A stretch of DNA of 64,000 nt from Cystobacter ferrugineus (GTDB taxonomy: Bacteria; Myxococcota; Myxococcia; Myxococcales; Myxococcaceae): the NCBI RefSeq assembly GCF_001887355.1, contig NZ_MPIN01000006.1, forward strand, positions 248,001 through 312,000, read 5' to 3'. The translations under genes and the position numbers were made by a program. The notes under the pieces were generated by a model that did not search any database, was not told the DNA's origin, and saw nothing but the letters and a program-made list of their open reading frames with translations. Positions within the stretch are counted from its first letter, which is position 1; each line of letters opens with the position of its first letter. Below, one piece after another: positions 49,388-51,637 of this stretch.

Positions 49388-51637
49388 TCAAGACGGTGTC
49401 AGCCAATAGCGCTGACGCTGGAAGGGATAGGTGGGAAGAGAAATCCTGCGCCGGGAATGGGGCGCATCGAAGGCCGCCCAATCCACCGCCACGCCCCGGA
49501 CATACAGCGCGCCGAGTGTCTCCAATACTTGCGTCCACTCCGCGCTGTCCGCGCGTCCCAGATCCAGCCGCACCCCCGCGTCACTGGCCCGCATGACCCG
49601 GGGCAGCCCGGCCGAGGCCCAATCCACGGCGGGACCCGCCTCCCCCGCCGCGCGCCTCAGTCCCGCTTCGAGCCCGAGCACTCCCGCCTCCACCGCCGCG
49701 ACCCACTCCCCTACCCCCTCGCCCGCCACCGCCGAGGGTCTCACGCCCCACGCCCGCCACATCCGCGACAACGCCCACTGCCGCGCGAACACCGCGATCC
49801 GCTCCTGGGACGCGTCCTTCCACCGCCCCGCTCCCCCGCCGTACATCAGCCCCACCAACGGCTCCCCCAGCAGGTCCTTCACGGCCGCCGCACAGGCCTC
49901 CAGCCCTTCACGGAACGCCGGTTGGGTCTCGTACAACTCCCGGCCCCCAGCCGGCCCCTCCCCGCCAAAGACAAACGTCACGTCCGGTGCCAGCGCCCCT
50001 GGCGCGACCTTGCTCCCTCCTCGCACCTCCAGCAGCCGCTCGCGCACCTGCCGCGCATCGCGCCCCACCACCGCCAGCCGGTGCTCGAAGTGCGTCCGCC
50101 CCACCGCCGCCGTGAAGCACACGTCCCCCAGGGGCTCGGTGCTCGTCTCCAGGAATCGCGCGTACCGCTCCACCTGCGCCCGCAGCGCCTCCTCGCTCCG
50201 GGCCGACAACACCAGCACGTGTCCGGGCCGCTCCGGGCCCCGCTCGGGATCCACCCGCGGGGGAGGCTCCGCCAGCACCACGTGCGCCACCGTCCCCGTC
50301 CGCCCGTAGGACGTCACTCCCGCGATGCGCGTCCCCTGCGTGGGTGTCCACGCCGTCAGTTCCCCGGGCACCTTCACCGCCATGCTCGTCCAGTCGATGC
50401 GTGGGTTGGGGGTCTTCAGGTGCAGGTGCGCCGGCAACTGGCCGTGCCGCATCGCCAGCACCACCTTCATCATCCCCACCACCCCCGAGGCCGCTTCCGG
50501 ATAGCCCACGTTCGTCTTCACCGAGCCCATCCACAGCGACTCGCCCCCCTTGCGCCCCTCCTTCAGCACCGACCACATCGCCTCGGCCTCGATGGGATCT
50601 CCCATCGCCGTGCCCGTGCCGTGCGCCTCCAGGTAGCTCACCTCCGCCGGAGCCACTCCCGCGCTCTGGAGCGCCTGACGGATGACTCCCTGCTGCGCCA
50701 CCCCGCTGGGCACCGTGAAGGCACTGCTCGGTCCGTCATGTCCCACCGCCGAGCCCCGGATGATCGCCAGGATGGGCGCGCCCCTCGCCCGCGCGTCCGA
50801 CAGCCGCTCCAGCGCCAGCACCCCGCACGCCTCCGCTCGCCCAAAGCCATCCGCCGACGCGTCGAAGCTCTTGCACCGCCCGTCCGGCGAGAGCGCTCCG
50901 CTGCTCGAAAGATAGACACTCACCTCCGGCGAGAGCAGCAGGTTCACCCCGCCCGCCAGCGCCACGTTGCACTCCCCGTTGCGCAGGCTCTGACAGGCCA
51001 GGTGCACCGCCACCATGGACGAGGAACAGGCCGTGTCCACCACGAGGCTCGGTCCCTGGAAGCCCCACAGGTAGGACAGCCGCCCGGAGATCGCGCAGTT
51101 GGCGCGCGCCCCCATGAAGGTGGGATCAATGCCCGCCAGCCCCTCCTGCTCCAACACCCGCTGGCCGTAGTCGTTGTTCATCACCCCCACGAACACGCCC
51201 ACCCGCTCGCGCCTCGCGCGCTCCACCGCGTGCCCCGCCCGCTCCAACGCCTCCCACGCCACCTCCAATACCAGACGTTGCTGCGGATCCATCCGCTCCG
51301 CTTCACGCTCCGAAATGCCGAAGAACCGGGCGTCGAACCGGTCCACGTCCTTCAGGAAGCCCCCCCGCCGCGTGGCGATCTTCCCCGGCTCCGTGCCGAA
51401 CAGGGCCTCGGCGTCCCACCGGTCCGGAGGCACATCGCTCGTGGCGTCCACGCCCCGCACCATCAACTCCCAGAAGTCCTCCGGCCCCTCCACCCCTCCC
51501 GGCAGCCGGCAGCCCATGCCGACGATGGCGATGGGCTCCCGGCGCGCCGCCTCCGCCTGCTCCAGCCGCGCCTCCAGCTTGCGAATCTTCACCAACTGCT
51601 GCTGGAGCAACTGCCGGTAATTGATTTCCTCGGACAT
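49388..51637 (-). CDS. PKS-C: degenerate ketosynthase plus truncated, active-site-less acyltransferase
   Basis: A 749-residue type I PKS protein with an N-terminal docking-like coiled coil (YRQLLQQQLVKIRKLEARLE). The KS keeps Cys204 (DTACSSS) and the first His (EAHGTGT), but the second catalytic His is Tyr379 (KTNVGYPE instead of NVGHLE). Also NQDG is GHDG, EGCG is EACG, and GTNAHVV is GTVAHVV. The following AT is only about 190 residues: the GHSxGE nucleophile is GEGVGE (Gly641), and the C-terminal part with HAFH is missing. The post-AT linker PTYPFQRQRYW remains and ends the protein; there is no ACP or thioesterase. The full-length frame suggests retained use despite apparent loss of catalysis. 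Confidence 0.85.
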   Translation of the reverse strand: MSEEINYRQLLQQQLVKIRKLEARLEQAEAARREPIAIVGMGCRLPGGVEGPEDFWELMVRGVDATSDVPPDRWDAEALFGTEPGKIATRRGGFLKDVDRFDARFFGISEREAERMDPQQRLVLEVAWEALERAGHAVERARRERVGVFVGVMNNDYGQRVLEQEGLAGIDPTFMGARANCAISGRLSYLWGFQGPSLVVDTACSSSMVAVHLACQSLRNGECNVALAGGVNLLLSPEVSVYLSSSGALSPDGRCKSFDASADGFGRAEACGVLALERLSDARARGAPILAIIRGSAVGHDGPSSAFTVPSGVAQQGVIRQALQSAGVAPAEVSYLEAHGTGTAMGDPIEAEAMWSVLKEGRKGGESLWMGSVKTNVGYPEAASGVVGMMKVVLAMRHGQLPAHLHLKTPNPRIDWTSMAVKVPGELTAWTPTQGTRIAGVTSYGRTGTVAHVVLAEPPPRVDPERGPERPGHVLVLSARSEEALRAQVERYARFLETSTEPLGDVCFTAAVGRTHFEHRLAVVGRDARQVRERLLEVRGGSKVAPGALAPDVTFVFGGEGPAGGRELYETQPAFREGLEACAAAVKDLLGEPLVGLMYGGGAGRWKDASQERIAVFARQWALSRMWRAWGVRPSAVAGEGVGEWVAAVEAGVLGLEAGLRRAAGEAGPAVDWASAGLPRVMRASDAGVRLDLGRADSAEWTQVLETLGALYVRGVAVDWAAFDAPHSRRRISLPTYPFQRQRYWLTPS

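Follow-up and report, generated by a model that had tools for sequence, protein, structure and literature searches.

To our knowledge, few KSs take a finished chain off the assembly line. CalA3, from the calcimycin pathway, is a terminal PKS protein without an ACP whose KS amidates or hydrolyses the chain and whose AT is dead, with the Ser replaced by Gly (G651) (PMC10006239). The chain sits on C197 and H332 is the proposed general base, and placement of the amine falls to H372, K367, L437 and L439; the H372A mutation abolishes amidation (PMC10006239). Mutants with raised hydrolysis include C197A (PMC10006239), which makes that assay a weak guide. CalA3 is also a case in which dead PKS domains have been retained for a structural purpose (PMC10006239).

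TAS1, a fungal NRPS-KS hybrid, relies on a Cys-His-Asn terminal KS for the cyclisation and release of tenuazonic acid (PMC4640141, PMC8788799). KS0 domains that have lost one His still transacylate; KS3 of the hangtaimycin line, a KS0 of a dehydrating bimodule with Cys-Asn-His, is expected to do so without elongating (PMC8456789).

Layout of PKS-C and its operon

PKS-C is encoded on the minus strand at 49388..51637 of the window (the whole 64,000-nucleotide stretch of DNA that was analysed, from a myxobacterium of the Archangium/Cystobacter type). The coordinates had been proposed in a sequence-only reading and proved right; the gene comprises 749 codons and a stop and is the third in the operon PKS-A/B/C. 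It starts 9 nt past the stop of PKS-B, in line with the coupling to PKS-B that had been claimed. Pfam and the orthologues define a terminal KS*-AT0 protein of 749 aa, in which Pfam detected a KS, a KS–AT linker and a partial AT only. As that reading had also held, neither an ACP nor a thioesterase was found in the protein by Pfam, and neither is encoded adjacent to it. The AlphaFold model is confident (pLDDT 89.5, pTM 0.90) and matches KS-AT didomains along its length in a fold comparison.

An N-terminal docking helix (aa 1–33; 51539..51637, minus strand) was delimited by orthologue alignment. Residues 2–32 are predicted to form a single long helix that is near-identical in the orthologues, as expected of the docking coiled coil claimed earlier. 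The KS* domain follows (aa 34–460; 50258..51538, minus strand). Further along, the AT0 remnant (aa 549–690; 49568..49993, minus strand) leads into a post-AT linker (aa 691–748; 49394..49567, minus strand) that ends in LPTYPFQRQRYW and is kept in all orthologues.

PKS-B (51647..60688, minus strand; 3013 aa) was resolved by domain search and alignment as KS-AT-KR-ACP-KS-(AT lost)-DH-KR-ACP, with a C-terminal docking tail ..LSDAELARLVAEDLAKDS. PKS-A (60685..64000, minus strand, being the part in the window, as the gene runs past the window end) is KS-AT0(GHGVGE)-AT-DH-ER-KR-ACP and totals 2578 aa. The first of its tandem ATs has GHGVGE instead of GHSxGE and is dead, and the second has GHSMGE. In a related cluster of genome G091, unlike in PKS-A, a loading ACP stands at the N terminus and the first AT looks active. 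Because that cluster retains its loading machinery, the PKS-A line seems to have lost it and must be primed otherwise. The AT motifs are VASH in the second AT of PKS-A and HAFH in the AT of PKS-B. Judged by these motifs and the reductive domains alone, one may guess at a chain in which an alpha-methyl-branched saturated unit has been extended to a 5-hydroxy-2-enoyl thioester, provided that module 3 of PKS-B is fed in trans.

The gene order around the operon is common to the six genomes compared. PKS-A/B/C is the sole conserved biosynthetic unit, and the genes after it vary between genomes. No conserved thioesterase, ACP or other biosynthetic gene was found beside the operon in the neighbourhoods of the genomes compared. 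An upstream CoA-transferase was rejected as a cluster member, because most relatives carry it as a core gene. Directly downstream of PKS-C lie genes for a SnoaL-like protein (48700-49215, minus strand) and an AMP-ligase (47153-48703, minus strand). Both were rejected as release partners, being absent at that site in the relatives examined, and the pair is possibly a strain-specific addition. On the opposite strand, an antisense ORF runs uninterrupted for 3807 codons (window 49457-60880, plus strand) and spans PKS-B and most of PKS-C. This ORF is in codon register with both genes, and its length reflects no more than the fact that TTA, CTA and TCA codons do not occur in this high-GC sequence.

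The KS active site

The KS retains C204 (DTACSSS), H339 (HGTGT) and K374. Its motifs are changed from GHLE to GYPE (Y379), from NQDG to GHDG, from EGCG to EACG and from GTNAH to GTVAH. The kept Cys and first His, the Tyr at the second catalytic His site of elongating KSs (codon at 50501..50503, minus strand) and the three altered motifs had all been read correctly from the sequence. Set against 47 elongating KSs, PKS-C differs informatively by H379Y, N299G, G270A, F444Y and N450V/L and by R446, where those KSs have a hydrophobic residue; the altered states are absent or nearly absent in that set. The Q of NQDG varies among elongating KSs anyway, and this half of the motif carries little meaning.

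G270, N299 and H379 are invariant in 47/47 elongating KSs, and N450 in all 40 aligned at that position, whereas PKS-C and its orthologues carry A, G and Y at the first three sites and V or L at the fourth. This invariance makes it very unlikely that PKS-C still condenses with Tyr379 or Arg446 standing in for the second His and an extender supplied in trans. The adjacent module 3 of PKS-B, which is also without an AT and needs trans feeding if it elongates, would suit such an arrangement. Nevertheless, PKS-C has no ACP to carry the extender or to receive the product.

PKS-C lacks the complete Cys-His-His set, the AT Ser and the ACP of a functional elongating KS-AT module, and judged by sequence it is non-elongating. 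The KS would be unable to decarboxylate via the usual residues, yet probably still able to accept a chain. It looks reshaped, not dead, with its transacylation chemistry apparently intact. The earlier description of both catalytic domains as ablated was therefore overstated, as the KS has lost neither its Cys nor its first His nor Lys374, and the changes that it does show form a fixed, selected set.

Two other classes were considered and rejected. A KSQ loading decarboxylase does not agree with the presence of C204 or with the position of PKS-C, which is last in the operon and not N-terminal, and a chain-length factor does not agree with the presence of the Cys. Partners of the chain-length-factor type lack the Cys. 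A KS-beta-like role, in which PKS-C pairs with the KS of module 3 as a heterodimer, might be suggested by the 65% identity of PKS-C to its closest paralogue, KS_B2, but is extremely improbable given that the Cys is invariant in PKS-C.

Decay of the AT is shared with PKS-B

The AT remnant has Gly641 (GEGVGE) in place of the nucleophilic Ser, as the sequence-only reading had noted, and this Gly is present in 8/8 aligned orthologues. Pfam Acyl_transf_1 covers profile positions 1–115 of 319 only. Alignment to CurL showed a gap of about 150 residues in the AT catalytic core, beyond which the sequence resumes with the post-AT linker (PTYPFQRQRYW). The deletion is larger than the C-terminal third first supposed: about two thirds of the domain is gone, while the post-AT linker remains. 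The stub and linker may have been retained to flank the KS structurally.

By alignment, A. violaceum and two other genomes of the second genus (G010 and G030) have, in module 3 of PKS-B, the truncated Gly-AT seen in PKS-C. In the host genus this AT is deleted outright and only the closing motif PTYPFQRQRYW is left. AT loss was rejected as the defining event of PKS-C, since module 3 has a like stub or none and AT decay is therefore not distinguishing. The decay is older and common to PKS-C and the upstream module. Module 3 itself is KS-DH-KR-ACP with an intact KS; the host genus has deleted its AT, and the other genus has only a dead stub. With its AT lost, the module can elongate only if an extender reaches it in trans.

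Conservation and selection

A protein search over 96 family genomes identified a syntenic PKS-C orthologue in 10/10 genomes of two genera (4/4 in the host genus and 6/6 in the second, Archangium) and none, at the threshold used, in the 86 others. A separate scan of named genomes matched Archangium lansinium and A. violaceum Cb vi76, which identifies the second genus as Archangium. Wherever examined, the orthologues occupy the same A-B-C operon position. As a DNA pattern, the Tyr version of the KS motif gave 10 matches among 193–195 Myxococcota, one per orthologue genome, and was not found in any other of the approximately 195, so that its rarity is established within the phylum. The His version gave about 534 matches summed over the 96 family genomes. 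Other KS matches, from cyanobacteria, Streptomyces and others, are ordinary and have the His where the motifs are readable; the rest are without readable motifs.

Pairwise codon models gave dN/dS values of 0.043–0.052 for the KS of PKS-C, on a par with the 0.043–0.075 of the intact paralogue KS_B2, and 0.048–0.097 for AT0. In the docking helix dN is 0; 15 of its 33 codons vary synonymously while the protein stays near-identical. The likelihood ratio against omega = 1 exceeded 100 for every pair of PKS-C KSs. Y379, G299, A270, Y444, R446 and G641 are invariant across the orthologues although their codons drift synonymously (TAT/TAC for Tyr379, CGG/CGC/AGG for Arg446 and GGG/GGC for Gly641).

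Instead of a dN/dS near 1 and stop codons in relatives, which the sequence-only reading had named as evidence against it, the KS is thus strongly constrained and no stop codon was seen in any orthologue of the 10 genomes; the claim of an intact frame holds throughout. PKS-C is under strong purifying selection and is maintained. A pseudogene was rejected, with dN/dS far below 1 in every domain and frames intact in 10/10 genomes. The same values, across two genera, make a degenerating module relic, kept by chance or left by a recent loss, highly improbable, and as a neutral relic it is already refuted. Such a relic would account for the truncated AT and for the MT and ACP that were apparently lost relative to the cluster of genus g23. 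Purifying selection is evidence of a function, not of release specifically.

Origin of PKS-C

In the KS tree, PKS-C and KS_B2 form sister clades, each with members of both genera, which places their duplication before the genus split. The stem leading to PKS-C is long (0.30 versus 0.09) and is followed by conservation.

Short contigs from three genomes of genus g23 (G091, G092 and G107) encode a PKS-B-like tail and, after it, a protein whose docking helix (INYRQ..QQQLVKIRKLEARLE) is near-identical to that of PKS-C. Unlike in PKS-C, the KS motifs of this protein are intact as far as the contigs read, since the contigs end inside it. In G091 the AT is also intact as far as read, and the module seems to go on into MT-ACP; the g23 protein is predicted to be a normal elongating module. 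A different G091 contig carries the start of the homologous line, ACP-KS-AT-AT-DH-ER-KR-ACP, and the second protein of that line seems to run into MT-ACP. Near-identical modules have collapsed in the G091 assembly, and the module order there is a reconstruction. Repeated, near-identical KS-AT stretches break or collapse the assemblies at L109, L110, L084 and L125-L126 (G091, G092, G107), and the KSs look homogenised. The link between PKS-C and the g23 module rests on the docking helix and gene order, the tree being uninformative as the two g23 KSs are homogenised or collapsed. PKS-C probably began as a normal module; once the back half, the AT and the second His were gone, selection froze what remained.

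As the g23 equivalent begins a full module that continues to MT and ACP (in the collapsed assembly), the ancestor passed its chain on. PKS-C might do the same as a KS0-like transacylase, with Cys204 relaying the chain to an acceptor of the ACP or CoA type whose gene lies elsewhere, and not ending the line. It has the KS0 hallmark of a retained Cys with one catalytic His lost (C204, H339, Y379), as in dehydrating bimodules. We regard a relay as rather unlikely, since PKS-C contains no ACP and no conserved ACP gene was found nearby.

A non-elongating KS that may release the chain

We put at about even the chance that PKS-C is a non-elongating, chain-accepting KS that ends the line and releases the product. 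Of the docking or release platform proposed earlier, four parts stood: the sequence marks PKS-C as non-elongating, it docks to PKS-B, it comes last in the line, and it has been maintained. Release we infer by analogy, together with the acylation of PKS-C, the nucleophile and the product. PKS-C is the natural candidate for this step because the operon has neither a thioesterase gene nor any other biosynthetic gene as a conserved neighbour.

In the proposed mechanism, PKS-C would dock through its conserved helix directly after PKS-B, and the chain on the last PKS-B ACP would be transferred to Cys204. Decarboxylative condensation would be blocked by the loss of the second His, Asn299 and Asn450 and by the lack of an AT or ACP to supply an extender. 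The acyl-enzyme might then be attacked by a non-carbon nucleophile. This could be water, or else a hydroxyl or amine that belongs to the chain itself or to a different molecule; His339 would act as general base. The pocket remodelled by Tyr379 and Arg446 is predicted to hold the acceptor. A fuller proposal, which we hold more tentatively and at somewhat less than even odds, is that the front half of a cis-AT module was turned into a release enzyme. Its Cys-His-Tyr KS with a gating-loop Arg would free or cyclise the chain without condensation, replacing a thioesterase, and has become fixed in two genera.

PKS-C might alternatively be a non-catalytic cap that binds the PKS-B tail and stabilises or gates it, the chain leaving by spontaneous lactonisation or through a trans thioesterase. 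The docking helix is the most conserved part of PKS-C, and CalA3 retains dead PKS domains for structure, both of which are consistent with a cap. Nevertheless, Cys, His and Lys are perfectly conserved alongside specific pocket changes that a pure cap would not need, and we judge a cap unlikely.

Many assembly lines are without a recognisable release domain. PKS-C offers a compact (749 aa), conserved and carrier-less case and a clean one in which to ask whether a handful of residues can convert a condensing domain into a terminator. Such a reduced module is simpler to study or engineer than the approximately 360 kDa CalA3 dimer. PKS-C also draws attention to a PKS operon that is uncharacterised and present in all sampled genomes of the two genera.

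Comparison with known systems

To call PKS-C a new chain-termination arrangement is too strong, as CalA3 (PMC10006239) and TAS1 (PMC4640141) are already published. PKS-C matches the CalA3 structure sequence with an E-value of 1e-124, one match of many; PDB entries 7wvz and 8i4y are taken to be CalA3, judged by length and description. CalA3 was not among the best 50 matches of the fold comparison, which is uninformative either way. A constant offset of 7 relates C197, H332, K367 and H372 of CalA3 to C204, H339, K374 and Y379 of PKS-C. By extrapolation of the same offset, which concerns numbering only and not aligned sequence, L437 and L439 would correspond to Y444 and R446.

Both proteins are terminal without an ACP, have an N-terminal docking domain and an AT with Ser replaced by Gly, and keep the KS Cys, first His and Lys. 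CalA3, however, has Cys-His-His and large dead DH and KR domains that form a structural lid, whereas PKS-C has Cys-His-Tyr with Arg446 in the acceptor loop, its AT is truncated and the protein ends after the post-AT linker. Because amidation by CalA3 needs the second His, its chemistry is not transferable unchanged to PKS-C.

TAS1 likewise has a terminal KS without an ACP in which the second catalytic His is replaced, but by Asn and not Tyr; its KS forms a clade of its own and it lacks an AT remnant. KS0 domains share the kept Cys and the loss of one catalytic His. They pass the chain to a downstream ACP, which is found neither in PKS-C nor conserved beside it, and the hangtaimycin KS0 lost the other His. 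The KSs of trans-AT lines (a bacillaene KS and BGC11 K3) resemble the AlphaFold model (Z 58–61) and also have a linker and post-AT tail without a working AT, but they elongate and have the His, whereas PKS-C comes from a cis-AT line. With its different triad and absent lid domains, PKS-C falls outside the strict CalA3 or TAS1 groups, though it may work in a similar way.
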